From a bacterium (GTDB lineage: Bacteria; CLD3; SB21): DNA of 64,000 bases. The position numbers and the translations under genes are program-made. Under the pieces are notes generated by a model. It ran no database searches. It was not told the origin of the DNA and saw nothing but the letters and a program-made list of their open reading frames with translations. Positions 29,560 to 59,412 of the stretch are shown piece after piece. Position 1 is the stretch's first letter. Every line of letters begins with the position of its first letter. The stretch is taken from the NCBI GenBank assembly GCA_013360215.1, contig JABWCP010000012.1:1-64000 (forward strand), in the 5' to 3' direction.

Positions 29560-32364
29560 TTATAATGCTTTTATCACAACGACCGTCTCGTCATCGTGCT
29601 GCATGGCTTCACCGGTAAACGAATGCACATCATCAATGATCCGATGCACCAACATCTCCGCTGAGGAATCCGGTTTTTCATCAATTAGTTTCAATAACCG
29701 CTCTTCACCGTATTCATGACGATGAATATTGTGCGCTTCGATCACGCCATCCGTTACAAAAACAAAGACATCCCCTGGTGCATAAGCGAATTCTTTCTCT
29801 TCCAGATTTTCCTCAAATGTCCCGTCATCGGTTATGCCCAATCCTACTCCTAGCGGCGTAATAAGCTCCACCTTGCGTTGGGATGCATTGTAACAATACA
29901 ACGGTAAGTGCCCTGCACGTGCGAGACGAATTTTTTTCTCTTCCAATAGAAACGTTGCACCGATCGAAGTGACAAATGATTTTTTCTCCAGATCACGACA
30001 TAAAATACGATTGGAACGAATAAACAATTCGCGCGGTGTCAGATCAAAGCTGTTGAGCGAATGAATAATACCCTGCACCTTGGACATATATAACGCCGCT
30101 GACGTGCCTTTGCCGCTCACATCGCCTACGATAACAGTAAACTTATCCGGTTTACCGTTGAGATAATCGAAATAATCACCGCCCACCTCGAGCGCCGGTA
30201 CCGAGCGCCCTGCGATTTCCAAACCTCTCACGTTCGGTGTTTTTTGAGGCAATGACTCCAACTGAATGCGACGGGCGATATTCAGCTCATGCTTCAAACG
30301 ATCTTGCTCGGCAAGATTCTCATACAAAAAGGCATTCTCGATCGCAACCGAAGCTTGTTTGGCGACCGTCGTCAAAAACATAAGATCATCATGATCAAAC
30401 GGCGATTCCGACATGCGTTCCCCGACGATAATCGCGCCGACAGTGTGCTCTTTTGAGCGAATCGGTATCACAAAACGAAAACCGCATTGGCGCAATTCGT
30501 TGCGCAGCGGTCCCGGTAAATTATCCACATTGATCGTAGCTGTTGACGTATTGGCACGCACAGCCGCCATAAGAGGTTGATCCGACTTCGAGCATAACGC
30601 CTGCCACGCGCCGGATTCATACCCATATACTTCACTGCAACACAACGATTTTTCATCCCGATAAAAAACGACGCCGGCCATTTTGAGATGCATGAGCGAA
30701 GCTAATTTTTCAACCATTCCGCGCGCCAAATCATTCATATTAAGATTGGTCGCCATCACCTCCGCAAGCTCTGCCGCCGCACGCCGGTAGTCGTGATGGG
30801 ATCGGTGAAATTTATAATCGATCCAACGTTGGCCCCATGATCGCAGGCGTACCCAAACAAACGTCATCAAAACAGCTAATAGTATCAGAACGACTTTAAG
30901 AATTTGCATGCGTTCATCCGCACTTACAGGTACATCCGTAATTTCGACAGAAGATTCCGTAAAACGGATATTAGGCAAATCCATATTCGAAGTGACCGCT
31001 ATGACAATCAATTGTACAGCGCCGTACACCACGGTTAAATTCCAAACCAGCGATGCGATTACATATTGCACATTACGACGCACACGGAAGTTTAGCTCCA
31101 TCAAGTGGTATCGTGCGATCGTATAAAGATGCGCGAGAGGGATCAGCGCAAAGAAGAATCCGGCATAACCGAAAAGGTAACCACGTCCTGAATTACCGTC
31201 ACTGAAAAATGTCAGTACATAACCCAAAACAGCGCATGCGAAAGCAATCCAACCGCTCAGACGCGAAACCGAACGATATGAGGATGAAAAATACGACTTG
31301 TAACGCAATCGGATAAATATATAATACACCATCATCGCAATACCGCTTACAAACGCGGCAAACGCTTGTTGGTAAACTACAATTCCGATAAACGTTATCG
31401 CCGATATGCCATAGGGTACGATGGCTACCCATTTTTTCTGAATTAATTCCTGAACGGAAAACGGAAAATATAATCGGCTGTGCATCAGCATGGCCATACC
31501 AAGTACGAGGCTCCACCATCGCACATTGGTCACAAATACTCCGAATGGTGTAGTACTCAAGGATCCCCGCTCACCTAAAAGCGACAACATCATTCCGATA
31601 AGAAAAAAAGCCATTCCCAAAAGCACTGCCGCTGTGGTATCCGCGCGTTTGTAAACCAAAAATGATCCTACTAATATATACACGAGACCGGCGCCATAAA
31701 TCACCAACAGAAAAAATGGTATGCCAAACTTGGCCAGCGTAACATCCAAGGTAATGATTTGGTTGTCGCGCAAAATATCGTAAGCAATGGTCTTACCGAT
31801 TTGTCCGGATGACAGAATTCGATCCGCTTCGATCGCCGATTTGAATGTTCGCCCGTTGATACGAACAATCAAATCACCGACCAACATGCCCGCGCGATCG
31901 GAAGCGCCGTTGTGGGCCACTTCACGCACATGCGCCGTAAAAGGAATTTCATGATAAAAACTATCCGGGGCATCTTTCCGGATAAAATTGGCCACGAACA
32001 TCTTGGATGCTTTGGAGCGAAAAACAATGGCGTTGATTTTTTCTTCAGATCCGACGCGTTTCAAAAATCGGGCTATGGAATCCTGATCTTTCCAAAAGAT
32101 ACCGCCGACGGATACGAGCAAGTCGCCTGCATATACGGAATCGCGAATAAATACACCTGTCGTATCGCGTTTTTGATAATAACTGATATCGGCCGGAAAA
32201 CTGCGAAAGATGTATAGCTGAGACGGTGCATCATCAAAAATATTTTCATCTGTCGGAGAAGCGGCAAAACGATAAAAATTGACAACGACTAAGACTACGG
32301 CAGCGATCATAAAGGCTGTCAGAAAAATGCGCCGAAATAGGAGGTGTGTGGGCTTCATGGTCAT
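29560..32364 (-). CDS. membrane PDZ-7TM-GAF-SpoIIE (PP2C-type) phosphatase
   Basis: A 934-residue signalling protein. Order: N-terminal membrane anchor (about 12-30), an extracytoplasmic region with a second-half PDZ domain (VREVAHNGASDRAGMLVGDLIVRINGR, about 145-170), a cluster of about seven to eight membrane helices (210-510), a coiled segment, a GAF domain (about 540-680) and a C-terminal SpoIIE phosphatase. The phosphatase keeps its metal-binding aspartates in ALEVGGDYFDY, VIVGDVSGKGTSAALYMS, FVFVTDGVIEA and MQHDDETVVVI. Such enzymes usually dephosphorylate anti-sigma-factor antagonists in partner switching, but no STAS or anti-sigma gene is nearby. Transcribed alone. Confidence 0.85.
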   Translation of the reverse strand: MTMKPTHLLFRRIFLTAFMIAAVVLVVVNFYRFAASPTDENIFDDAPSQLYIFRSFPADISYYQKRDTTGVFIRDSVYAGDLLVSVGGIFWKDQDSIARFLKRVGSEEKINAIVFRSKASKMFVANFIRKDAPDSFYHEIPFTAHVREVAHNGASDRAGMLVGDLIVRINGRTFKSAIEADRILSSGQIGKTIAYDILRDNQIITLDVTLAKFGIPFFLLVIYGAGLVYILVGSFLVYKRADTTAAVLLGMAFFLIGMMLSLLGERGSLSTTPFGVFVTNVRWWSLVLGMAMLMHSRLYFPFSVQELIQKKWVAIVPYGISAITFIGIVVYQQAFAAFVSGIAMMVYYIFIRLRYKSYFSSSYRSVSRLSGWIAFACAVLGYVLTFFSDGNSGRGYLFGYAGFFFALIPLAHLYTIARYHLMELNFRVRRNVQYVIASLVWNLTVVYGAVQLIVIAVTSNMDLPNIRFTESSVEITDVPVSADERMQILKVVLILLAVLMTFVWVRLRSWGQRWIDYKFHRSHHDYRRAAAELAEVMATNLNMNDLARGMVEKLASLMHLKMAGVVFYRDEKSLCCSEVYGYESGAWQALCSKSDQPLMAAVRANTSTATINVDNLPGPLRNELRQCGFRFVIPIRSKEHTVGAIIVGERMSESPFDHDDLMFLTTVAKQASVAIENAFLYENLAEQDRLKHELNIARRIQLESLPQKTPNVRGLEIAGRSVPALEVGGDYFDYLNGKPDKFTVIVGDVSGKGTSAALYMSKVQGIIHSLNSFDLTPRELFIRSNRILCRDLEKKSFVTSIGATFLLEEKKIRLARAGHLPLYCYNASQRKVELITPLGVGLGITDDGTFEENLEEKEFAYAPGDVFVFVTDGVIEAHNIHRHEYGEERLLKLIDEKPDSSAEMLVHRIIDDVHSFTGEAMQHDDETVVVIKAL

Positions 32365-33371: not shown

Positions 33372-33399
33372 ACGTTTCCTGAAGTTTAAAGTAACAATA

Positions 33400-33433
33400 A
33401 AAAAGCCCTACACCAATGATGTAGGGCTTTTTT
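33400..33433 (-). terminator. intrinsic terminator of the MglA cluster (bidirectional form)
   Basis: A 13-bp perfect stem AAAAAGCCCTACA / TGTAGGGCTTTTT with a 7-base loop and flanking A and T tracts. It ends the leftward seven-gene cluster just before uppP. Confidence 0.93.
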
Positions 33434-33449
33434 CCGCATATCAGAAAAA

Positions 33450-34034
33450 TTATAATTGTGTTTGAACGTTGGCAATCACTTTATTGATGATCGCTTTGAG
33501 TGTGTCAAAAACACCGACACCTTTGATACCGACGGCTTCATAATAAGGTACATTAAAATAATTGAGGCGTTTTTGAAGATTTTCTACTGTATCAACATCC
33601 GGAAGATCGCGCTTATTGTACTGGATCACCCAAGGAAACGAGTCCAGCGAGTGGCCGTCTTCACGCAGATTGTTTTCCAGATCAAGCAAGGTTTCAATAT
33701 TGCCGTCCATACGATGCTTTTGTGAATCGGCAACGAAAACGATACCGTCCACGCCGTTGAGAATAACTTTACGGCTGGAGGCGTAATAAACCTGACCGGG
33801 AACGGTGTATAAATTAAATTTCGGTTTTTTACCTTTGATACGACCGACTTCAAGTTGTAAAAAGTCGAAAAATATCGTACGATCTTCTTTGGTTTTAAGC
33901 GATACGAGTTCGCCGGCCAGCGAGGGATCCATTTTGGAATGGATGTATTCCAAATTGGTCGTCTTGCCGCTCATACCGGGGCCGTAGTACACTATCTTCA
34001 GATTGATCTCTTGTAATGCCCAGTTGATAAACAT
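33450..34034 (-). CDS. mglA: MglA-type small Ras-like GTPase
   Basis: A 194-residue GTPase of the MglA family, which controls cell polarity and motility in Myxococcus and has varied roles elsewhere. The P-loop is GPGMSGKTT (residues 18-26), the switch-I region contains KEDRTIFFDF, the switch-II is TVPGQ (77-81), and the base-recognition motif is NKRD (139-142). Arg52/Thr53 correspond to the intrinsic catalytic finger of MglA. GAGAGGA precedes the ATG. The roadblock partner gene lies 50 bases upstream, matching the mglBA order, within a larger signalling cluster. Confidence 0.92.
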   Translation of the reverse strand: MFINWALQEINLKIVYYGPGMSGKTTNLEYIHSKMDPSLAGELVSLKTKEDRTIFFDFLQLEVGRIKGKKPKFNLYTVPGQVYYASSRKVILNGVDGIVFVADSQKHRMDGNIETLLDLENNLREDGHSLDSFPWVIQYNKRDLPDVDTVENLQKRLNYFNVPYYEAVGIKGVGVFDTLKAIINKVIANVQTQL

Positions 34035-34084
34035 TCGTATCCTCTCTAAGGTTTTATGGTTGAATCAGCAGACCGGATAATCCG

Positions 34085-34600
34085 TTATTTAAACGATTCG
34101 TCGAGTGCATCCCCGAGGAGCGAACCGAATTCGGAGTCAATCAGGTCTTTTGCGGAATCATCGCTGGAATTGGAAGAATCTTCAAAAATTTCAATCAGAT
34201 TCTGGATGGCTTTTTTCGTGTAAATACGAATGAGGCCGAGCGTTACGCTGGTATCAAACACGACGACGAGGAAAAAATTGTCGCCGACATTGGAAAGATA
34301 AACATTGCGTTTTTCACCCTCGTGAAAAAGCAATTTGAACTTAGCGTCTTCGCCGACAAGTTTGGCCATTTCCGCCGTCGCTGCAAAATCCGATGCAGCT
34401 AACGCCGAAAGCACTGTCGTGTTCATTTTGTCCGTATTGCCGCGCTGGCTGATGAGCTGGCCGCTCATATCCGCAAAAAGAATCGCCGAAGCTTTCGTTT
34501 TCGACGCCAGCTCAGACAAAACTTTGGTAACGCCCTCAAATTGTTTCCCGTTGAGAATAATTTGCTTGCTACCGTCTTTCAATTTTTTCGTCTGCAACAT
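34085..34600 (-). CDS. roadblock/LC7 protein, MglB-like
   Basis: A 171-residue protein with a roadblock/LC7 fold (about residues 20-135): FEGVTKVLSELASKTKASAILFADMSG then SALAASDFAATAEMAKLVG and FFLVVVFDTSVTLGLIRIY. MglB is the GTPase-activating partner of MglA and belongs to this fold, and position immediately before the mglA-type gene supports that role. The acidic Ser/Asp-rich C-terminal tail (SSNSSDDSAKDLIDSEF) is reminiscent of the tail of MglB. AAGGG precedes the start. A 135-base gap separates it from the HAMP gene. Confidence 0.85.
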   Translation of the reverse strand: MLQTKKLKDGSKQIILNGKQFEGVTKVLSELASKTKASAILFADMSGQLISQRGNTDKMNTTVLSALAASDFAATAEMAKLVGEDAKFKLLFHEGEKRNVYLSNVGDNFFLVVVFDTSVTLGLIRIYTKKAIQNLIEIFEDSSNSSDDSAKDLIDSEFGSLLGDALDESFK

Positions 34601-34735
34601 AGCGGTTACCCTTTGCTCTGGTTATGGTAATCTTAAAAGAATAATCAAAATTGGATCTTGATAAGCGGACGTGCATCGCATTACGGATTAACAACCGTAA
34701 CCTATGGAATTTTCGTCCTTTAGTCAAATAATTTT

Positions 34736-35482
34736 TTAACCGGCCTTTTTCTTTCGCAAACGTTCGATAGCCGCTTTCAACGATTCACGCAAACGCTCAA
34801 TCGCATCCGCCAAATCACCGATTTCATCGGTCGCTTCGACGCGCACGATGGATTCCAGATCGCCTTTACTGATCTGCTCGGCCGATTCCGTCAGATACAA
34901 TAGCTGTTTGGTAAGCGCGTTCGAAAGATACAACGCGACGATCATACCGAAAACCACGGCCAGAGCGAGTACGCCGCCCACTAAAAGCGCCGTAGCACGG
35001 ATCGTGTCATCAATAAATTTTCCGGACATTCCGACGTGTGCATTGCCCAACGTACCGGCGCCGATCGGTGTGGAAATTTCGTAGGTTTCTGTATTTTCGA
35101 CTTGTGTCAAGTCAATCTTATAATCACCGCCGCCGTCAATCACGGCCGCTTCTACCATCGTGCGTTGATTGTACGAACCGACTTTAAATTTCTGTGCAAC
35201 CACTTTATTTTCTTTGTCGGAAATATACACGTAAGATACGGCGGTAAAACCGGAAGCTATATCCACGAGATTCTGGATGTCCACTTCATCATCGCCGACC
35301 AGCGGACGTTCCACCTGTTTGGACAGTGTGGTCACGATCGCTTTGCCGCGCTCTGTCAGTTCGGACTGCAGTGAACCCGACACCAACTGTACCACAAGAA
35401 TGGTAATCGTGATACCGGCAATCAACGCACCGCTCACGATCACGAGCGGCACTTTCCATTTTAGGCTTAGTCCTTTGGCCAT
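34736..35482 (-). CDS. HAMP-domain membrane sensor lacking an output domain
   Basis: A 248-residue protein with two membrane helices (about 11-33 and 163-188) flanking a 125-residue extracytoplasmic sensory region. A HAMP domain follows (YLSNALTKQLLYLTESAEQISKGDLESIV... , about 186-240), and the protein ends at once in a basic Lys-rich helix (KAAIERLRKKKAG). There is no kinase, methyl-accepting or cyclase domain attached, so the signal must pass by protein contact, most likely to the roadblock/DUF4388 proteins encoded on either side. Eleven bases separate it from the DUF4388 gene. Confidence 0.8.
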   Translation of the reverse strand: MAKGLSLKWKVPLVIVSGALIAGITITILVVQLVSGSLQSELTERGKAIVTTLSKQVERPLVGDDEVDIQNLVDIASGFTAVSYVYISDKENKVVAQKFKVGSYNQRTMVEAAVIDGGGDYKIDLTQVENTETYEISTPIGAGTLGNAHVGMSGKFIDDTIRATALLVGGVLALAVVFGMIVALYLSNALTKQLLYLTESAEQISKGDLESIVRVEATDEIGDLADAIERLRESLKAAIERLRKKKAG

Positions 35483-35492
35483 AATCGTCCGA

Positions 35493-36296
35493 TCACAATG
35501 TACGGATTTGTTTGAGCATCAGTTGTTTAAAGGCCAATTGTTTGGCCGGATCGTAGATCTCATTGGCGATCGCCTCCACCAACGGCGGCACTTTGTCTTT
35601 GGGAAACGTTCTCTGATCTTCGCCAAACGTCTCAACCACGTCGTCGATAATGATCGAGGCCACCGGCCCGATCAATTGAATCAATTCATTTTCCAGGTTC
35701 TTGAAAAATGCAGAGGATACGTTTTGTTTATCGGCCGACGCTGTAGCGCCTGAAACTGCCGTGATCAACCCGGCTTCGGCCAGCATGTATACGATCCCCG
35801 CCACATCCATATCTTTCATACCAAGACGCGAGGATAACTCATCCACGGAATATTCGTCTTTTTCTAAGAGATGTAGCAATTCCCAGTCTTTAGCTTTAAG
35901 ACGAATGGTCGGCGAAGGTTCATTATCTGTTTTACGAAATTTGACGCGGAACGAAGGTATGTGGCGTGCAATTTTTTGCCAGGCTTCATACTCTAACGTC
36001 GCTTCCGTGATGAGCTTGCCTGTTTCCTTATCAATGCTTTTCTGAAGCGACGCCACATCCGGTTCAAATGAAAACTTACCGCTGGTCCAGAGTATCAACT
36101 CGTGGAAGGCGGGTTCGCCGAGATAGGTATCGCACACGGCATGGACGATACGCTTATTGGCCAGATAAATTTCCCCATTTTCGCGTTGATCGCCGCGCTC
36201 CAGCAAAATGCGTCCTGTACGGTCACCTGCGACCAATAACTTGACGATGCTCAGCACGTCAACGTGAGATAAATTTCCGGAGAGAACGGTTGCCAT
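35493..36296 (-). CDS. DUF4388 (PATAN-like) protein with C-terminal winged-helix-like region
   Basis: A 267-residue protein. Residues 1-100 are a DUF4388 domain (LSGNLSHVDVLSIVKLLVAGDRTGRILLERG, described by its start, with EIYLANKRIVHAV and FHELILWTSGKFSFEP). A helical middle (about 150-200: WELLHLLEKDEYSVDELSSRLGM) looks like a winged-helix or CxxC-less adaptor. The C-terminal 65 residues are helical (LAFKQLMLKQIRTL). DUF4388 proteins accompany response regulators and MglA-type GTPases, with roles only inferred. It lies between the HAMP and roadblock genes. Confidence 0.7.
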   Translation of the reverse strand: MATVLSGNLSHVDVLSIVKLLVAGDRTGRILLERGDQRENGEIYLANKRIVHAVCDTYLGEPAFHELILWTSGKFSFEPDVASLQKSIDKETGKLITEATLEYEAWQKIARHIPSFRVKFRKTDNEPSPTIRLKAKDWELLHLLEKDEYSVDELSSRLGMKDMDVAGIVYMLAEAGLITAVSGATASADKQNVSSAFFKNLENELIQLIGPVASIIIDDVVETFGEDQRTFPKDKVPPLVEAIANEIYDPAKQLAFKQLMLKQIRTL

Positions 36297-36318
36297 GGAT
36301 CAGGCCCGCACGTGTTGG

Positions 36319-36756
36319 TTAATTGACAACTTCGACCAGTGCCCAGCTTTCCGCATCCATATTGCTCCGCACCAGAAAACTGCGGCGGGACGCTTCAACT
36401 TTACTGAGTCTTTTTTGAAATTTTTTATCGGCTTCCAGATCCGCCAGCGCCACATTGACCGTGAGGCGCAGCATCGCCACGCTCACATTGGGCTGACACA
36501 GAATGATCAAGTTAAAATTACTCATCGGATAGGCGATGACGCGCCCATTATCGTATTTGAGATCGTATTCATGCAGCGGCGTGGAGAGGCGATCAAACAT
36601 GGCCGCCACCTGGATCACATCGCGCGCGATTTCCACATACGTCGCTTCGTCAAAACCTTGCGGCATATTGGCATACACCGTTTCGCCGTCATTAAAATAA
36701 ATAAATGAGGTTTTGACACCGTTGACGCTATTGATTTCTTCGAGTTTGTCTTTCAT
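36319..36756 (-). CDS. roadblock/LC7-like protein
   Basis: A 145-residue cytoplasmic protein with the alpha/beta arrangement of a roadblock domain: EEINSVNGVKTSFIYFNDGETVYANMP, then VEIARDVIQVAAMFDRL, then VIAYPMSNFNLIILCQPNVSVAMLRLTVNVAL. Hydrophobic strand-helix periodicity fits, but the sequence is divergent from MglB. It is one of three roadblock-like products in this cluster, so heteromeric assemblies are possible. AGGA precedes the ATG. Inference from fold pattern only. Confidence 0.6.
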   Translation of the reverse strand: MKDKLEEINSVNGVKTSFIYFNDGETVYANMPQGFDEATYVEIARDVIQVAAMFDRLSTPLHEYDLKYDNGRVIAYPMSNFNLIILCQPNVSVAMLRLTVNVALADLEADKKFQKRLSKVEASRRSFLVRSNMDAESWALVEVVN

Positions 36757-36777
36757 AATCCTGTCCGTGGAAAACGC

Positions 36778-37440
36778 TTATTCGGAAACTTTTTGAATAC
36801 CGGGCGCTTTTTCTATTGCCTGCTCGATCAGATCCGCTGCCGCTTTTTGTTCTACGGTCAGCGTGATAATATCGTCATGCCACTTGGAAATAATTTTTCG
36901 ATCATTTTTGCCCGTTACGATGCCAAACTTATACGTGCCTGATTTGGAAGCACGGCCTATCTTAGCCAGTTTGCGCATTATAAAACCCATACCGGCAGAG
37001 GTGCGTTTTCCGTTGGCAATGCCGTCTTCCATCAGAATCTCGCCCTGCGGTGACGATACCAGCACCGCGTTTACGCCGTTGATGGTTTTGATGTCACGGG
37101 TAAACTTGGCCATGGCTTCGCCTTTGGCTTCTAAGGCTTCATCAATCAGGCGAAGGCCTTCCATCATCAGATTGCCCCACGGTGCATTGATCGTACGCTT
37201 CGGTGAAGCAACACCGTTTTCGACTTTAAAAGGGCCTTCTTTGATAGCTAATATTTTATACACGGCATCTTCACCTTCTACAGCACCAAATGTCGCGTGT
37301 ACGATATTACCTTCCGCAAAATAAATACGTCCGACCGCATTGCGTAATTCGACCGTAAACATCGCTTCGTTCTTTTCCATACAGTTCAGTTGAACGATGT
37401 TGGTCAATTTGAGATCTCTTAGATTTCCTACAAGCGCCAC
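36778..37440 (-). CDS. DUF4388 plus roadblock-like two-domain protein
   Basis: A 220-residue protein. Residues 1-95 form a DUF4388 domain (LVGNLRDLKLTNIVQLNCMEKNEAMFTVE..., with VGRIYFAEGNIVHATFG and EDAVYKILAIKEGPFKVENG). Residues 105-215 resemble a roadblock domain (IKTINGVNAVLVSSPQGEILMEDGI, MGFIMRKLAKIG). The start is GTG at 37440 with AAGGG about eight bases upstream. It follows the response regulator gene by 17 bases and may link its phosphorylation to the downstream roadblock and GTPase proteins. Confidence 0.72.
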   Translation of the reverse strand: MALVGNLRDLKLTNIVQLNCMEKNEAMFTVELRNAVGRIYFAEGNIVHATFGAVEGEDAVYKILAIKEGPFKVENGVASPKRTINAPWGNLMMEGLRLIDEALEAKGEAMAKFTRDIKTINGVNAVLVSSPQGEILMEDGIANGKRTSAGMGFIMRKLAKIGRASKSGTYKFGIVTGKNDRKIISKWHDDIITLTVEQKAAADLIEQAIEKAPGIQKVSE

Positions 37441-37457
37441 GTCAATACCCTTTATTC

Positions 37458-37832
37458 TTATTTCAACGCTTCGGCAATTACGCTTTTCATCATCTTGATT
37501 TCAAACGGTTTTTCGATATAGCGGTATGCGCCAAAACTCAGCGCTTCCTCTTTTTTTTCATCCGAACCGTATGCCGTCATGATAATCACATGCGTCTGCG
37601 GGCGTTCTTTTTTTACGCGTTTGAGCAATTCGATCCCGCTGATGCCGGGCATGGTAATATCCGTCAATATCAGATCAAACGGATGTTCGGCAAATTTTTC
37701 CCACGCTTCGGTACCGGAGGAAGCTGTCACGACTTCGTAATTTTCTTTAGATATGATAAAACTCTGGTAGAGACTAAACGTAAGCGTCTCTTCGTCATCT
37801 ACAATCAAAATTCGCTTTAAAGTACCCGACAT
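37458..37832 (-). CDS. stand-alone response regulator (CheY-like)
   Basis: A 124-residue receiver domain with no output domain. The acidic pocket is Asp12/Asp13 (VDDEE), the phosphoacceptor Asp58 (LILTDITMPG), with Thr86 (MTAYGS) and Lys108 (IEKPFE). It is the first gene of the leftward cluster; GAGG precedes the ATG. The cognate histidine kinase is not adjacent. As a single-domain regulator it probably acts by binding a partner, plausibly the DUF4388 proteins next in the operon. Confidence 0.92.
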   Translation of the reverse strand: MSGTLKRILIVDDEETLTFSLYQSFIISKENYEVVTASSGTEAWEKFAEHPFDLILTDITMPGISGIELLKRVKKERPQTHVIIMTAYGSDEKKEEALSFGAYRYIEKPFEIKMMKSVIAEALK

Positions 37833-38248
37833 AAGGCCTCAGATTGCCATTGAAAAAAACATTTGTTTTAATAATTACAAAACCGAACTGCATCGGTTTA
37901 ACAGACACCATACGCTTAATAATTTGAAATTTTATGTTTGTGACCGATGATTGGAATCTTTACTGCAATGAATTGCGTAATGATTATTCGGGTATTCTTT
38001 CAGACTTTCAAATTACAAGATAAATTAAATAGCGGGGAAATATATGAAAAGCGAATGGAGATTGTCAATTGAAAAGATATGCTTCGTGAAGAATTTTCAA
38101 GACTTTAGCATCGTTTTAAGACAAAGAAACTCCTTTACTTTTTATTTTTAGCTGTGTATTTTCCCAAAATTTTGATATACCTGACTTATATTGGTTGTAT
38201 ATAGTTTCGGGTATCGTTGAGGGTGTCATCCAATAACCGGAGCAGGGC
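37833..38248. other. divergent intergenic region, 416 bp
   Basis: AT-rich region between the leftward response-regulator cluster and the rightward synthase gene; both promoters should lie here. Seen: a hairpin AACCGA-ACTGCA-TCGGTT at about 37881-37898, and TTGATA (38172-38177) with a TGTATA 18 bases later as a weak promoter for the synthase. A 35-codon frame (38044-38151) with GGGGA before its ATG is the only small open frame with a ribosome-binding-like site; its product is not convincing. Confidence 0.4.
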
Positions 38249-51591: not shown

Positions 51592-54500
51592 ATGAGTATC
51601 ACATCTAAAAAAATATTTCGTCGTCTGTTTTGTTTTTTCCTTTTTCTTTTCATGTTGGCTGCCGATACGAAGGCGCTGGATCCGGAGCGCAGTGTAACGC
51701 AATACGTGCACGATGTTTGGTTGAAAGAAGACGGTTTACCCGGAATCTCCGTACTGTCGTTTTATCAAACCCGTGAAGGGTATTTATGGATCGGTTCGTT
51801 TGAAGGATTGGCGCGTTTTGACGGCGCAAAATTTACGCTTTTCAATCGCCGTTCCATTGATGCTTTTCTCAGTTACGGGCTCTGGCGAATCTTAGAAGAT
51901 AAACACGGTTATATTTGGATGGGAACCAACGGCAACGGTATTTATCGCTTTAAAGATCCTAACTTCCAACGCCTTGCCGTAACCAACGGGCTCACCAATG
52001 ACAATGTTTTATCACTGGCGATGGATCAGGATGAAATAGTTTGGGCGGGCACGCGAAAGGGATTAAACAGAATACGAATTATTTCACAAGATAGTTTTGC
52101 CGTTGAACCCGTGATGTATCGCAGTAATGTACTGCAGGACGTTTTTGGGTTGTGTACCGATCACGACGGCACCGTATGGATAGGCGCTACAAATACTATT
52201 TATCGTTATGTCGAAGGCCGCCTTGAGGAGTTTGCAAACATCGGCGAGCGCATCCGTTCGATGTATGTAGATCGCGATAATAGGATATGGATCGGCACCA
52301 CCAACCCCGGCGTTTTTCAAATTTCAGAAAATCAACTGCGCCATTTTACAACTAAAAACGGGCTCCCCCCGGAATCCATCTGGCGTGTGTGGTATGACCG
52401 TGACGGCAATGTTTGGTTGGGTTCGGATGGTATGGGTCTTTTTCGCGCCAAACCCGGAAGTTTCCGCGACGAAAACGAATTGATTTCCCTTGAGCAGTTT
52501 TCAGAAAAAGAAGGATTAACCAATAATCGAATTTCGGCGCTTTTTGAGGATCGGGAAGGCAGTTTGTGGATCGGCACATTTCGCGGTGGTCTCAATCGCC
52601 TGCGTGACGGAAAATTTATCACTTATGCATCCGCCAACGGAATGGTGCACCCGGTTGTTTATCCCATCGTACAGGAACATAACGGCGATATGTGGTTTGG
52701 TACGGAGGGCGGTTTGTCGCACTATTCGGGCAACCGTTTTGTAAATTACACGACGGCCAACGGGCTTTCCAATAATCAGGTACGCGGCATTGTTCGTGAT
52801 TCCAGGGGCCGCCTGTGGGTCGGCACGTACGGTGCGGGTTTAGATATTTTTAATCCGGCCAGTGGACGATTCGCGCCGGCTCCGTCTGCGATTAACCACG
52901 CCTTTCGCAACATTCGTGATATGCTTAAAGACCGCGAAGGCCATCTGTGGATCGGCACTATCAACAGTATCGGATTGATCAAACCAGACGGCAGCCACCG
53001 TACTTTTACCATGCAAGACGGCCTGCTTACCACATCTATTTTATGTTTGTACGAAGACATCTATGGCAACGTGTGGGCCGGTACGGATGGTGGCGGCGCT
53101 GCACGCTACGATCGTAACAAAGGTTTTTTCAGAGTACTGACGATGAAAGACGGATTGAGCAGCGATATTGTTTTTGCAATACACTGTGACCGGGACAGCG
53201 TATATTGGTTTGCGACGCAAAGCGGCATTACGCGCTACGATCCACGCGCCACAGATTTGCCGTTTGCTTCGCTCACCGTACGCCAAGGTTTGCCGGCCGA
53301 TGCGGCATTTGAAATCCTCGAAGATAATCACGGTTACATCTGGCTTGGCGGTGCAGAAGGAATTTTTCGCATCAGTAAAAAGGATTTTGAAGATGTCGCG
53401 CGCGGTAAAACCAATCAATTGACCCCGCTTCTTTTTGGCAGACCGGACGGTATGAAGACCAGCCAAACAACCCCTTCGGGACGTGCGCACAAAACATCCG
53501 ACGGAAAGCTTTGGTTTCCCACCCCTAAAGGCGCCGTGGTCATCGATCCGGATAAAATAAAAACCAACCCTGTACCGCCACCCGTGGTGATCGAACGATG
53601 CATAGCCGATGGGCAATCATGGCCGATACAAAACGATGTGGTATTGCCGCCCGGTATTTTGCGAATTGAGTTTCAATACGCCGCTTTGAGTTTTCTCGCT
53701 CCGCAGCGCGTATTTCACAAATTTAAACTCGAAGGATTTGACACCGATTGGATGGATGCCGGTACACGACGCACGGCATTCTACACGGGACTTCATCCCG
53801 GCGAATACACTTTTAAAGTCATCGCCTGCAACAACGACGGCATCTGGGCATCGGAGCCGACTTCGTTTTCTTTTACGATTCGTCCGCATTTTTACGAAAC
53901 ACGGTGGTTTTTGCTTCTCATTTTCGGCGGTATGATCGCTGCGGCTTTATCATTATACCGTTGGCGTGTTCGCCACTTGATGCACCGTGAAAAGGAACTA
54001 GCCGCATTGGTCAAACTGCGCACGCATAATCTGGAAGAAGAAAAAAAACGCACCGAGGACGCACGCATCGAAGCCGAACGTCAACGCGAAGAGGCGTTGC
54101 GCGCCAATGAGCTTAAAACACAATTTCTCGGTATGGCATCCCATGACTTAAAAAATCCGTTAGCGGCTATCATAAGTTATACCGATCTGATCATCGAAGC
54201 GTATGACGATAAAGCTCAGTCCATGCGCGATCTGGGTTATATTCGCAAGGCGGCCCATCGCATGCTTCATCTTATTAACGGTCTTCTCAATACGGTTAGC
54301 CTGGAAAGCGGAAAAGTCGTCCTGCAAAAAGAAAAATTAGATGTATCCGATTTGGTGGAACAGGTTCTTTTTAGTAATCAACAAATGCTGGAACGAAAAC
54401 GTCAACATGTGCAGGTACAAACTGTACCCGGACTCTATGTTAACGCCGACCGTGACCGTCTCTACGAAGCGCTGGATAACCTGATCAGTAACGCGATCAA

Positions 54501-54789
54501 ATATTCCGATTACGATAAAACAATACGCGTAGATTTGGGCATGAATGAACTTAAAATCATAATTCGAATCACGGATGAAGGTCCCGGAATGACTACCGAC
54601 GATATGAAAAAACTTTTCGGTAAATTTCAACGTCTTTCAGCCAAACCTACCGGCGGAGAGACATCTACAGGCTTGGGTTTGTCTATCGTCAAACAAATCG
54701 TCGAAATGCATGAAGGCCAGGTTTGGGCCGAAAGTGAATTCGGTAAAGGCAGTACCTTTGTCGTGGAGTTGCCAAGATTCACTTCATAG
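51592..54789 (+). CDS. propeller-sensor histidine kinase
   Basis: A 1065-residue transmembrane sensor kinase. A signal peptide or first anchor (about 8-28) leads to a periplasmic two-component-regulator propeller: repeated blades of the type DREGSLWIGTFRGGLNRL (about 30-630). A Y_Y_Y domain (about 700-765; ending RPHFYETRW) precedes a membrane helix, then a coiled segment, HisKA with His851 (MASHDLKNPL) and HATPase (NLISNAIKYS, DEGPGM, GLGLSIVKQIV). It has no receiver domain. Such sensors usually monitor extracellular ligands, often glycans. Only 189 bases separate it from its larger paralogue. Confidence 0.92.
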   Translation: MSITSKKIFRRLFCFFLFLFMLAADTKALDPERSVTQYVHDVWLKEDGLPGISVLSFYQTREGYLWIGSFEGLARFDGAKFTLFNRRSIDAFLSYGLWRILEDKHGYIWMGTNGNGIYRFKDPNFQRLAVTNGLTNDNVLSLAMDQDEIVWAGTRKGLNRIRIISQDSFAVEPVMYRSNVLQDVFGLCTDHDGTVWIGATNTIYRYVEGRLEEFANIGERIRSMYVDRDNRIWIGTTNPGVFQISENQLRHFTTKNGLPPESIWRVWYDRDGNVWLGSDGMGLFRAKPGSFRDENELISLEQFSEKEGLTNNRISALFEDREGSLWIGTFRGGLNRLRDGKFITYASANGMVHPVVYPIVQEHNGDMWFGTEGGLSHYSGNRFVNYTTANGLSNNQVRGIVRDSRGRLWVGTYGAGLDIFNPASGRFAPAPSAINHAFRNIRDMLKDREGHLWIGTINSIGLIKPDGSHRTFTMQDGLLTTSILCLYEDIYGNVWAGTDGGGAARYDRNKGFFRVLTMKDGLSSDIVFAIHCDRDSVYWFATQSGITRYDPRATDLPFASLTVRQGLPADAAFEILEDNHGYIWLGGAEGIFRISKKDFEDVARGKTNQLTPLLFGRPDGMKTSQTTPSGRAHKTSDGKLWFPTPKGAVVIDPDKIKTNPVPPPVVIERCIADGQSWPIQNDVVLPPGILRIEFQYAALSFLAPQRVFHKFKLEGFDTDWMDAGTRRTAFYTGLHPGEYTFKVIACNNDGIWASEPTSFSFTIRPHFYETRWFLLLIFGGMIAAALSLYRWRVRHLMHREKELAALVKLRTHNLEEEKKRTEDARIEAERQREEALRANELKTQFLGMASHDLKNPLAAIISYTDLIIEAYDDKAQSMRDLGYIRKAAHRMLHLINGLLNTVSLESGKVVLQKEKLDVSDLVEQVLFSNQQMLERKRQHVQVQTVPGLYVNADRDRLYEALDNLISNAIKYSDYDKTIRVDLGMNELKIIIRITDEGPGMTTDDMKKLFGKFQRLSAKPTGGETSTGLGLSIVKQIVEMHEGQVWAESEFGKGSTFVVELPRFTS

Positions 54790-54978
54790 CAAACGAATCA
54801 TTTTATCGTTTATACAAGGAAAGACCCATCATACAACCAACTCCGATCCGACCGGATTGAATTTTTAATAAAACGGCGGATCGCCACTCACTGTAGCGAC
54901 CGAGTTTGAATTGGAAATCAAGTTGGCAAAGGCAGCATATCCATTTTGAATTACATATAAAAAAATCATAGTGTATTT

Positions 54979-57900
54979 ATGCAATCATGTCATCCTCTTA
55001 GAAGCCGTGTTCAAATAACCCTGATTTGGTTACATTGCCTTTTCGTCACCGGTTCCTTATACGCGCTGGATCCGGATCGGCGCGTGACACAATACATGCA
55101 TACGATGTGGACGACCGATCAGGGGCTGCCACAAAATAATATTACCTCTATGATCCAAACGCGGGACGGCTATATCTGGTGTGGCACGTTGGATGGGCTT
55201 GTACGATTTGACGGTGTACGCTTTGAAGTTTTTGATAAGCGTAATACGCCGGCCATTCGCAATAATGCAATCATCACGATGTTCGAAGATCGCTCCGGTG
55301 GTTTGTGGGTAGGTACCATAGGCGGAGGCCTAGTGCATTATAAGAACGGAAAATTTATTTCTTACGGATTAACGGAGAAGTTCCCCAGTGCGTATATCTT
55401 GCATATGGCCGAAGACGAACAAGGGCGCTTGTGGTTCGCTACGCGCGACGGATTGGTCACTCGCGGCGATACGTCGTGGATTACCTATACGGCAAAAGAA
55501 GGTTTAACGCATACTTCCGTACGTTCGCTGTTTTTTGATCGTAAAGGACGGCTTTGGATCGGCTCTTCGGTCGGACTCAGTTTAATGGAAAACGGCGTGA
55601 TTCGTAAAATTTTCGCGCACGAACTTGCCGACAAAAACGTCACTTCGATCACTTCCGACAGCACGGATATCATTTGGATTACGGTACTCGGCAAAGGCGT
55701 GTATCGTATCAAGGGAGATAGCATCGCACACTTGCAAGCACCCAAAAGTATTCCTCATAATTTTATCAATGCGATCGCTCGTGATAAAAACGGTAATCGC
55801 TGGTTGGCTACCGATGGCGGTCTCTATCGTGAACATCACGGACGCTTTGAACGATTTATGGATGAATCGAATTTTCCTCTCGACAAAGTCATGTGTCTGC
55901 TGGAAGATCGCGACGGCAATTTGTGGTTTGGCACCAACGGTAGCGGGCTTAACCGTCTGCGTGATGAAAAATTTATCACTTATACGACCCTTGAAGGTTT
56001 TAAAGACAACAGCGCCAACGTCGTATTCGAAGACAGCCGTGCTCGCATCTGGGTCGGTACCGAAGCCGGCGTTTCGATCATTGACGGCGATACGATCCGT
56101 AATCTCGGTGAATCCAGCGGACTGACCAACACCAAAGTGCGTTCTTTTGCGGAAGATACAGACGGACGAATATGGGTCGGCACGCGCGAAGGTGTTTTTG
56201 TATGGAATGAGGTACGTTTCGAATCATGGAATGCGCGCCTCAAAATTCCACCCTTGGTCATTCTCTCCATGCTGCGCGCGCGCGACGGTACGATGTGGAT
56301 CGGCACCGGCGGCGCTGGTGCGGTATCTTACAAACCTCAAAACGTACAACAATATACCTCCAAACAAGGTTTAGCCGGCATCGTCGTGATCGCTATAGCG
56401 GAAGACTCGCTCGGGCGAATGTGGTTTGGCACCAATAGCGGACTGAGTCGCTTCGACGGAAAAAACTTTGTCACATACAATTCCAAAAACGGTATGTCAT
56501 CTGATATTTTTTTATCTCTGTATGTGGACAAAACCAATACGCTGTGGGCGGGTACATTTGGTAACGGACTCAACCGCTTACAAAACGACTCCATCGCCAT
56601 ATTTACGACGGCCGATGGTTTATTCAACGAAAACATGTATTCCATTCTGGAAGATGGCGAAGGTTATCTGTGGATGAGCTGCGGTAAGGGCGTGTTTCGC
56701 GTCGCCAAAGAAGATTTTGAACGATACCGTCAGAAAATAATACCCGTTATACCATGCAAAGTGTTTGGCCGCAGCGACGGTATGCGCAGCAGCGAATGCA
56801 ATGGCACTACACAACCCGCCGCATGGATGACCCGCGGCGGATGGCTTCTGTATCCGACCGGTAAAGGTCTTGCTGCCGTGAATCCGCGTTTGTTGTCGCG
56901 CGTTTCCCCGTCACCGCTGGTCGTCATTGAGCGCATGCTGGCTGAACAAAAACTCATCACCTTAGGTGAAAAAATCGAATTGACGCCGGGACACCGCCGT
57001 ATCGAATTTACATTTACCGGTTTAAGTTTTACCGCTCCGGAAAACAACACATTTATGTACCGGCTTATCGGTTTTGATAAAGAATGGATCCAAGCCGAAA
57101 AAACTCGTCATGCCGTCTATACCAATGTACCGCCCGGTGCATACCGCTTTGAGGTGATGGCTTCCAATAGCGACGGCATTTGGTCCTCGCAACCGGCGAC
57201 AGTATTATTTTCAATTGATCCGTATTTTTTTGAGACCGTGTGGTTTTACAGTTTGTCCGGTGTATTCCTTTTGTATCTCGGTTTTACGTATTACCGTTCG
57301 CGTGTGCGCGAACTGCACGAACGTCAGGAAGAACTGACACGGCTTGTACAGGAACGCACACGTAATCTGCGCGAGGAAAAAGAAAAAACCGAACACGCGT
57401 TGCGGGAATCCGAGGAAGCTAAACGCGAGATCGAAAAATCTCAGCAGGTCATTCAGTCGCAATCACAAAAATTGATCGAATTGGATAAAGTAAAAACCAA
57501 TTTCTTTACCAATATTTCTCACGAATTTCGTACCCCGCTCACATTGATCATCGGACCTTTGGAAGATGTATTGCGATCCGCCACGCTTTCGGCCGATCAA
57601 CGCGTTTCATTTGAACTCATGTTACGTCAAGCCAAGCAACTATTGGGTTTGATCAATCAACTTCTGGAGGCAGCCCGGCTTGAGTCCAATCGGGTTCAGT
57701 TTCATCCTTCACTTCGACCGCTGGTTCCTTTTGTTCGCGAACTGACTTCTATGTTTGAATCGGCGGCTCAGCGTAAAGGCATTCATCTTTCGCTGGAGAC
57801 CTCCGACGAGAAAATACAATTGTACTATGACCTTCATGCGATGGAACGCGTTTTGACAAATCTTATTTCTAATGCGATCAAGTTTACCGAGCAAGGGTTT

Positions 57901-59412
57901 ATAAAAATTACGATCAAACATAGTGAACATACGCATCGTCCGTCGGTTGTCATTTTTGTCGAAGACAGCGGACGCGGTATTCCGCAGGAACATCTCGGCC
58001 ACATCTTTCAGCGTTTTTATCAAGCGGACGGTGTCGAAGCCGATCAACTGGGGAGCGGAATAGGTCTTTCGCTGGTCCACGATTATGTGGAGATGCACCG
58101 CGGCTTGATCACTGTCGAAAGCACGGTCGGCAAAGGCACACGTTTTATGATAACGCTTTTTACCGGCGAAGAACATTTATCCGGTACGATCACACCTCAT
58201 GCTGAAATAAAAACGGAGACCGAATTTATTTACGCCCGTTCCATCGCCGCACTTTCATCCGAACATAACATTACTCCCGAAATATCAGCGCCGGATCCGA
58301 CGGAGCGTCAAACGGCCGATAAGCCTAAGGTATTGATCGCCGATGATAACGCCGATATTCGTTTGTACTTATATAACCTCTTGCGGGACGAATACCGCAT
58401 GATCATGGCGCACGACGGCGCCGCGGCGTTGGATTTGCTTCAACGGGAATTTCCGGATATGGTGCTCAGCGATGTGATGATGCCCAATATGGACGGAATG
58501 GAATTGTGCCGTCGTATCAAATCCGATGAACGCACCCGCCACATTCCGGTCATACTGCTCACCGCACGCGCCGATGAATCCAGCAAAGTGGAAAGCCTCA
58601 ATCTGGGTGCGGACGATTTTGTCGCCAAACCATTTAGCGCTAATGAACTGAAAGCACGCATGCGCAATTTGCTCGGCATCCATGCCATGAAACTGCAGTT
58701 GATCGAACAAGAAAAAATGGCTTCTTTAGGACATCTTGCCCGCGGTGTCGCACATGAAATCAATAATCCGCTCTCCTTTGTAACAGGTAATCTTTCCGTT
58801 TTGGAATCACGGCTAGCCAAACTACATCCGGATGAGAATATTAAACCCATTGTCACCGATATCATGAGCGGAACCAAACGCATTGCCGCGATCGTGCAAC
58901 ACTTGCGTGAATTCACACGTCTGGATGAAGCCGAACGTAAATTCGTTGATCTGTCCGATATGGTGGATAACATTCTCACGCTCTTAGCCGGCGAAATGCA
59001 ATCCGATATTCGCATCGAAAAAAATATCGCACAGGTGCCCATGATTGATTGTTTTCCGCGCGATCTCAATCAAGCGATAGCACAAATCCTTATGAACGCG
59101 ACATATTATGTACGTGAACGCAACCGCATTGAAAACCGGTCTCTTGGTCATATTACCATTCATCTGAACAAAACCGATGAGAAATATGTCGAACTTATCA
59201 TAGAAAACGACGGCTTCCCGATTGCACCCGAAATTCGCGAACATATATTTGAACCCTTCTTTACGACCAAACCCATCGGCAAAGGTACCGGACTGGGCTT
59301 AAGCGCTGTTTACGGCATCATTCGCCGTCACCACGGACAGATACGCTGCGTGTCGGAACCGTCCCAGCCGGTGCGCTTCATTATAATGTTACCGTTTGCA
59401 ATACCGTCATAA
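54979..59412 (+). CDS. propeller-sensor hybrid histidine kinase with two kinase modules
   Basis: A 1477-residue paralogue of the previous gene. Domains in order: signal/anchor, propeller blades (about 30-640, e.g. DRDGNLWFGTNGSGLNRL), Y_Y_Y (about 700-765), membrane helix (about 755-780), HisKA with His848 (NISHEFRTPL) and HATPase (about 840-1075), receiver with Asp1165 (LSDVMMPNMDG), then a second HisKA with His1259 (GVAHEINNPL) and HATPase ending GTGLGLSAVYGII. The second ATPase has a divergent N-box and an ENDG in place of DxGxG. This sensor-kinase-receiver-kinase order is unlike the usual hybrid kinase, which ends in a DNA-binding domain. No receiver with output lies nearby. Confidence 0.92.
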   Translation: MQSCHPLRSRVQITLIWLHCLFVTGSLYALDPDRRVTQYMHTMWTTDQGLPQNNITSMIQTRDGYIWCGTLDGLVRFDGVRFEVFDKRNTPAIRNNAIITMFEDRSGGLWVGTIGGGLVHYKNGKFISYGLTEKFPSAYILHMAEDEQGRLWFATRDGLVTRGDTSWITYTAKEGLTHTSVRSLFFDRKGRLWIGSSVGLSLMENGVIRKIFAHELADKNVTSITSDSTDIIWITVLGKGVYRIKGDSIAHLQAPKSIPHNFINAIARDKNGNRWLATDGGLYREHHGRFERFMDESNFPLDKVMCLLEDRDGNLWFGTNGSGLNRLRDEKFITYTTLEGFKDNSANVVFEDSRARIWVGTEAGVSIIDGDTIRNLGESSGLTNTKVRSFAEDTDGRIWVGTREGVFVWNEVRFESWNARLKIPPLVILSMLRARDGTMWIGTGGAGAVSYKPQNVQQYTSKQGLAGIVVIAIAEDSLGRMWFGTNSGLSRFDGKNFVTYNSKNGMSSDIFLSLYVDKTNTLWAGTFGNGLNRLQNDSIAIFTTADGLFNENMYSILEDGEGYLWMSCGKGVFRVAKEDFERYRQKIIPVIPCKVFGRSDGMRSSECNGTTQPAAWMTRGGWLLYPTGKGLAAVNPRLLSRVSPSPLVVIERMLAEQKLITLGEKIELTPGHRRIEFTFTGLSFTAPENNTFMYRLIGFDKEWIQAEKTRHAVYTNVPPGAYRFEVMASNSDGIWSSQPATVLFSIDPYFFETVWFYSLSGVFLLYLGFTYYRSRVRELHERQEELTRLVQERTRNLREEKEKTEHALRESEEAKREIEKSQQVIQSQSQKLIELDKVKTNFFTNISHEFRTPLTLIIGPLEDVLRSATLSADQRVSFELMLRQAKQLLGLINQLLEAARLESNRVQFHPSLRPLVPFVRELTSMFESAAQRKGIHLSLETSDEKIQLYYDLHAMERVLTNLISNAIKFTEQGFIKITIKHSEHTHRPSVVIFVEDSGRGIPQEHLGHIFQRFYQADGVEADQLGSGIGLSLVHDYVEMHRGLITVESTVGKGTRFMITLFTGEEHLSGTITPHAEIKTETEFIYARSIAALSSEHNITPEISAPDPTERQTADKPKVLIADDNADIRLYLYNLLRDEYRMIMAHDGAAALDLLQREFPDMVLSDVMMPNMDGMELCRRIKSDERTRHIPVILLTARADESSKVESLNLGADDFVAKPFSANELKARMRNLLGIHAMKLQLIEQEKMASLGHLARGVAHEINNPLSFVTGNLSVLESRLAKLHPDENIKPIVTDIMSGTKRIAAIVQHLREFTRLDEAERKFVDLSDMVDNILTLLAGEMQSDIRIEKNIAQVPMIDCFPRDLNQAIAQILMNATYYVRERNRIENRSLGHITIHLNKTDEKYVELIIENDGFPIAPEIREHIFEPFFTTKPIGKGTGLGLSAVYGIIRRHHGQIRCVSEPSQPVRFIIMLPFAIPS

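Follow-up and report, generated by a model that had tools for sequence, protein, structure and literature searches.

The DNA analyzed here is a 64,000-nucleotide stretch, referred to as the window (positions 1 to 64,000 of contig JABWCP010000012.1, assembly GCA_013360215.1), from a bacterium of the lineage CLD3; SB21. Between positions 37832 and 33450 it contains seven open reading frames (ORFs), all on the minus strand (Table 1). A first-pass annotation, made from the letters and ORF translations of the window, had described them as a one-directional cluster of a lone receiver, a DUF4388-roadblock fusion, a roadblock-like protein, a DUF4388 protein, a HAMP membrane sensor without an output domain, an MglB-like protein, and an MglA GTPase. 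The ORFs were confirmed at these coordinates, and their order and direction agree with that description. From the receiver gene to mglA, the genes are separated by 17, 21, 22, 10, 135, and 50 bases. The first five products are referred to below as RR, A, RB, B, and H.

Table 1. Genes and candidate signals of the seven-gene operon (window coordinates).
Feature	Position	Strand	Description
RR	37458..37832	-	Stand-alone receiver, 124 aa, first operon gene
A	36778..37440	-	PATAN (DUF4388), residues 1-101, and predicted roadblock, ~105-213
RB	36319..36756	-	Stand-alone roadblock/LC7-like protein, 145 aa
B	35493..36296	-	PATAN, residues 1-107; winged-helix-like part, ~130-180; helical C-terminal domain
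H	34736..35482	-	Membrane sensor: single-Cache-like periplasmic domain and HAMP
MglB	34085..34600	-	Roadblock GTPase-activating protein homologue, 171 aa
MglA	33450..34034	-	Ras-like GTPase, 194 aa
Candidate intrinsic terminator	33399..33433	-	Directly after mglA; 16-pair stem and T run; consensus match only
Candidate sigma-70-type promoter	38039..38068	-	Upstream of the RR gene; TTGACA-18-TATATT, 11/12; consensus match only

Judged by sequence, the last two genes encode an MglA GTPase and its partner MglB. The MglA product aligned over residues 2-189 with the structures of Myxococcus xanthus MglA (phmmer, E 9e-72) and also matched Pfam small-GTPase models. Its catalytic motifs are intact, with the P-loop GPGMSGKTT, the switch motif DRTIFFDF, TVPGQ, and NKRD all present. 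The gene 50 bases before it encodes a protein that matched Robl_LC7 (5.6e-12) and the NCBIfam MglB model (1.7e-22, below the cut-off of that model), and the profile of this protein aligned end to end with the solved MglB structures 6hjm, 6izw, and 1j3w (E 1e-48 to 1e-39, up to 164 of 169 positions).

The domain content of the remaining five proteins is also in agreement with the first-pass annotation. RR consists of a receiver (Pfam Response_reg, 1.4e-30) with the phospho-accepting Asp D58 and the T/S and Lys switch residues, of which D58 and K108 are invariant across 12 aligned homologues. A and B both carry a PATAN domain, with Pfam DUF4388 matches of 71.3 bits (9.6e-20) and 54 bits (2.2e-14), respectively, against a curated cut-off of 25 for PF14332. 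Pfam missed the roadblock half of A and gave no meaningful match for RB. The AlphaFold2 model of the C-terminal half of A (pLDDT 84) has the succession helix, two strands, helix, three strands, helix, and its top Foldseek matches were all roadblock proteins, including M. xanthus MglB (E 3e-6, probability 1.0), so that a roadblock fold is predicted. For RB, a family profile built from 33 homologues matched Roadblock/LC7 structures (E 4.1e-5) and aligned with the MglB profile (hhalign, E 2.5e-6, probability 89). The cluster thus encodes three roadblock domains in three proteins (A, RB, and MglB), as had been proposed. B contains more than had been listed for it, since its PATAN domain is followed by a winged-helix-like part and four helices (AlphaFold2, pLDDT 90). 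Its C-terminal domain carries a conserved GPVA-type motif, its Calditrichota homologues are without the PATAN part in the alignment, and a structural search against the Protein Data Bank (PDB) gave no confident whole-chain match. H has a HAMP domain (Pfam, 1.5e-10) and a sub-threshold sCache_3_2 match (1.5e-5). It stops approximately 12 residues past HAMP and has neither an MA nor a HisKA/HATPase domain, and is by its domains neither a chemoreceptor nor a sensor kinase.

The first-pass annotation had proposed a survey of this gene order, and the order proved to be conserved across several phyla. We sampled MglA relatives at 70 genome loci, together with the nine genomes of the window's own small phylum, and labeled the genes by profiles. 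The full order RR-A-(X)-RB-B-H-MglB-MglA was present in 31 sampled genomes, namely, four of the window's family (the window's own, G002, G003, and G005) and 27 mostly titled Calditrichota, which argues against a chance association. In the other family genomes the contigs are cut in this region, and the pieces present keep the order. Each of the seven family genomes encodes protein A, which was not found in the two genomes of the sister family. X denotes an additional protein, weakly similar to DUF4388, that lies between A and RB in about one-third of the Calditrichota-type operons; two Nitrospirota loci represent a variant in which the order is kept with this protein. KSB1-type genomes contain only MglB-MglA, among other neighbors and often trailed by a short protein that is roadblock-like by eye and had no Pfam match. 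In an Aquificota metagenome-assembled genome (locus L083, 1-7056), PATAN proteins, MglB, a HAMP protein, and MglA are interleaved with Peripla_BP_6 periplasmic ligand-binding proteins, a possible ligand input of that set.

Between genera of the family, 3-5% of the MglA and MglB residues differ, compared to 28% in the neighboring UppP. The corresponding dN values are 0.04-0.06 and 0.22, with synonymous sites near saturation. This comparison of coding sequences shows strong purifying selection on MglA and MglB, and recent transfer as the cause of their 96-97% identity to relatives was rejected on account of the near-saturation of synonymous sites. Relative-rate tests revealed no consistent acceleration in the window's lineage, and in a quick tree of MglA the family groups beside the Calditrichota and Nitrospirota copies.

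The operons of other phyla provide information on the input to the receiver. Outside the window's phylum, all 27 operons have a histidine kinase gene before the receiver gene; the one kinase that was domain-scanned has PAS, HisKA, and HATPase domains, and the others are related to it. These kinases carry an HE(I/V)RNP box, and many of their genes overlap the receiver gene or are within 30 bases of it (one is split). In the window's family, the operon has no such kinase gene. Kinases of two Calditrichota-type operons and one Nitrospirota operon served as queries against the window's own genome; this search, like one made with pilus proteins of relatives, covered a 1.26 Mb sample, about one-third of the genome. 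The best match was a 704-aa kinase on contig C1 (~81-84 kb), which scored 239, 228, and 217 bits, compared to 131, 127, and 122 bits for the runner-up. It is a receiver-GAF-PAS histidine kinase, and its gene adjoins another (both within C1 ~80.6-83.8 kb; L120:4128-7347) that encodes a 363-aa protein composed of a receiver (residues 1-116), a PATAN domain (128-224), and a roadblock-like domain (239-362). The receiver of this fusion protein and that of the operon share 43% identity, and a second PATAN match of this type occurs in all seven family genomes. The C1 kinase and the fusion protein are likely a paralogous signaling pair of the operon. The union of receiver, PATAN, and roadblock in one chain is a classic hint that the operon receiver and protein A work together, and the position of the C1 kinase beside this fusion suggests that it may act in trans on the operon receiver. 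Elsewhere on C1 (~239.8-242.4 kb; L119:3833-6409), three tandem receiver-DUF4388 response regulators lie between the glutamate dehydrogenase and PrmA genes; DUF4388 domains number 11 in the window's genome as a whole.

The membrane arm is represented by H. Among 15 H homologues from several phyla, HAMP and the tail that follows it (R-SLK-AIERLK-R) are conserved, whereas the periplasmic part differs or has been swapped, as in the Nitrospirota, where it is replaced by dCache. Since the short, HAMP-ended form was present in every lineage sampled, H is no broken-down kinase or chemoreceptor.

Taken together, these data lead us to favor, with modest confidence, the reading that the seven genes form one signaling operon through which two inputs determine the nucleotide state or the location of MglA. 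Comparison of genomes supports well the existence of two inputs into the MglA/MglB switch, a receiver arm and a membrane-HAMP arm. From this arrangement we infer the protein contacts, the direction in which MglA is affected, the trans-acting kinase, and the output. In the first arm, the lone receiver would be phosphorylated by a PAS/GAF histidine kinase, which is the product of an operon gene in other phyla and here probably acts in trans, and would then dock on the PATAN domain of A. The roadblock domain of A, together with RB and MglB, would in turn alter the action of MglB on MglA. In the second arm, H would pass its signal through HAMP and the short conserved tail to the assembly of roadblock and PATAN proteins and B. 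The output may be the control of a surface or polarity machine, for which a type IV pilus is available in most carriers. Of the membrane-signal-to-GTPase circuit put forward in the first-pass annotation, the single conserved unit with two inputs stands, given the gene order, the operon kinase, the receiver-PATAN-roadblock fusion, and the HAMP tail; the type IV pilus, which known MglA and PATAN systems steer and which is the output expected here, was not found in this genome.

Several observations weigh against this two-input operon. The kinase assignment stems from the sampled third of the genome, and sequence comparison gives a weak roadblock match for the C1 fusion protein (E 8e-4). The 135-base gap between the H gene and mglB is such that mglBA may have its own promoter. 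The window's genome has no credible PilB or PilT, whereas a strong PilB/PilT-type ATPase was found in 24 of the 25 genomes tested.

This last frequency favors an alternative that we regard as rather unlikely, in which the operon would be a type IV pilus polarity module of the Myxococcus or cyanobacterial kind, with PATAN and MglA recruiting or gating PilB, the receiver in the role of RomR, and the extra roadblock protein in that of MglC. In accordance, PATAN regulators bind PilB in Synechocystis (PMC10519157, PMC7690835), and M. xanthus MglA recruits PilB through SgmX (PMC11580455). However, the operon is complete and shows no clear acceleration of its rate in a genome in which PilC (T2SSF) was not found either (present in the other eight of the nine phylum genomes) and PilM gave no match above the cut-off; moreover, two genomes of the same class possess pilus genes and have no MglA. 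The PilB, PilC, PilD, PilT, PilM, and pilin proteins of relatives had no match in the sampled third of the window's genome. Of the pilus ATPases and PilC/PilM that would together mark a pilus polarity system, the T2SSE-type ATPases and PilC are absent from this genome and PilM is without a good match; its relatives have them. This absence may reflect lineage loss or an assembly gap. The genome bin (56 contigs) is rated 100% complete; since the pilus genes are clustered in relatives, a single gap may explain their absence despite this rating. A 292-aa protein of the relatives' pilus locus, suspected to be a further roadblock protein, gave no profile match. GldA-GldF-GldG-like ABC transporter genes, which adjoin the pilus locus in G002, are found on contig C5 (148.3-152.0 kb; L143:12275-16033) of the window's genome, with no pilus locus there and no GldM in the genome; this flank of the G002 locus is not conserved and is thus a poor marker for a clean deletion.

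With the usual output machine not found, the output in the window's genome would have to be other than a type IV pilus. Type IX secretion system (T9SS) gliding was considered and is unsupported: SprA occurs in each of the nine phylum genomes, two of which have no MglA, and GldM was found in none of the 12 genomes tested. A further-reaching version of the two-input reading is tentative, and we hold it to be possible rather than probable. H, which has no enzyme, adapter, or methylation domain, would control a Ras-like GTPase directly, through HAMP and its tail of approximately 12 residues acting on the roadblock and PATAN proteins, in parallel to the phosphorylated receiver, and the circuit would work without type IV pili or a GldM motor, with MglA driving an unknown machine.

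Two other explanations fare less well. A transcriptional output, in which the winged helix of B would bind DNA and be gated by MglA and the roadblock proteins, is improbable: no part of B other than the winged helix and helical C-terminus is retained in every lineage, and B has weak profile matches to MarR-type regulators, but it is without a confident full-length structural match, and winged helices often bind proteins. Slightly less plausible still is a co-transcribed mix without a single pathway, in which MglBA would lie beside the remnant of an unrelated two-component system and a HAMP protein decayed from a chemoreceptor or kinase, since the KSB1-type neighborhoods and the gap before mglB that would fit it are set against the same order in at least three phyla, the recurrence of the short HAMP architecture and conserved tail in every lineage sampled, and the receiver-PATAN-roadblock fusion protein.

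As to the borders of the operon, the promoter-like match before the RR gene is the best of its class found, although neither promoter-like nor terminator-like matches exceeded the counts expected from shuffled sequence. The downstream genes for UppP and a 934-aa phosphatase were rejected as operon members because the terminator-like hairpin stands before them; furthermore, UppP is not adjacent to mglA outside the window's family. The 934-aa protein (29560-32364), encoded just downstream of uppP, has PDZ, GAF, and SpoIIE-type PP2C phosphatase domains. At 51592-59412, 14 kb from the operon, lie genes for two very large signaling proteins of 1065 and 1477 aa, which contain histidine-kinase-like regions.

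Known systems share parts of this arrangement. In the M. xanthus polarity module RomR/RomX/MglC/MglB/MglA, a receiver protein and the extra roadblock protein MglC act on MglA/MglB (PMC3441718, PMC7949163, PMC12719032). The two systems have in common a Ras-like MglA with a roadblock MglB, a receiver protein, and an extra roadblock protein; they differ in that the genes here form one compact operon, a roadblock is fused to PATAN, and a HAMP-only sensor and protein B are added. In RomR, the receiver is followed by a long linker and a C-terminal pole-targeting region, whereas the operon product of 124 aa is a receiver only, with no such extension. The likeness of RB to MglC, which binds MglB and RomR, lies in membership of the roadblock family. 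The actinobacterial conservons CvnABCD are operons that combine a membrane sensor with a roadblock protein and a GTPase of the MglA type (PMC4316618, PMC13343842). CvnA is kinase-like with HAMP and a C-terminal motif, whereas here sensor and kinase are separate proteins, H has no kinase domain, and there are seven genes, including those for receiver and PATAN proteins, instead of four. In the cyanobacterial response regulators PixE, PixG, and LsiR, receiver and PATAN form one output unit aimed at a motor ATPase (PMC10519157, PMC7690835); in the operon they are in two genes, the PATAN protein carries a roadblock, and no PilB was found in the genome. PATAN genes near Group 1/5 mglA or mglB have been reported earlier as occasional and in variable neighborhoods (PMC4316618; Wuichet and Sogaard-Andersen 2014; Makarova 2006), which contrasts with the fixed order of seven to eight genes with receiver, kinase, and HAMP sensor seen here across phyla.

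Our literature search, whose coverage did not extend to most subscription journals, retrieved no paper joining MglA, roadblock, and DUF4388, and the fixed operon appears to be undescribed so far. New are the fixed cross-phylum operon, the PATAN-roadblock fusion, the HAMP-only sensor, the separate kinase/fusion pair, and the retention of the operon without detectable pili. The coupling of two-component signals and membrane receptors to bacterial Ras-like GTPases has been worked out in few species, in which the parts are scattered over the genome. Here, the parts are in one conserved operon, which makes the partners directly testable, including signaling by a HAMP sensor that has no output domain. 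The window's genome represents a natural experiment, in which an MglA circuit appears to outlast the loss of the pilus that MglA is thought to steer.

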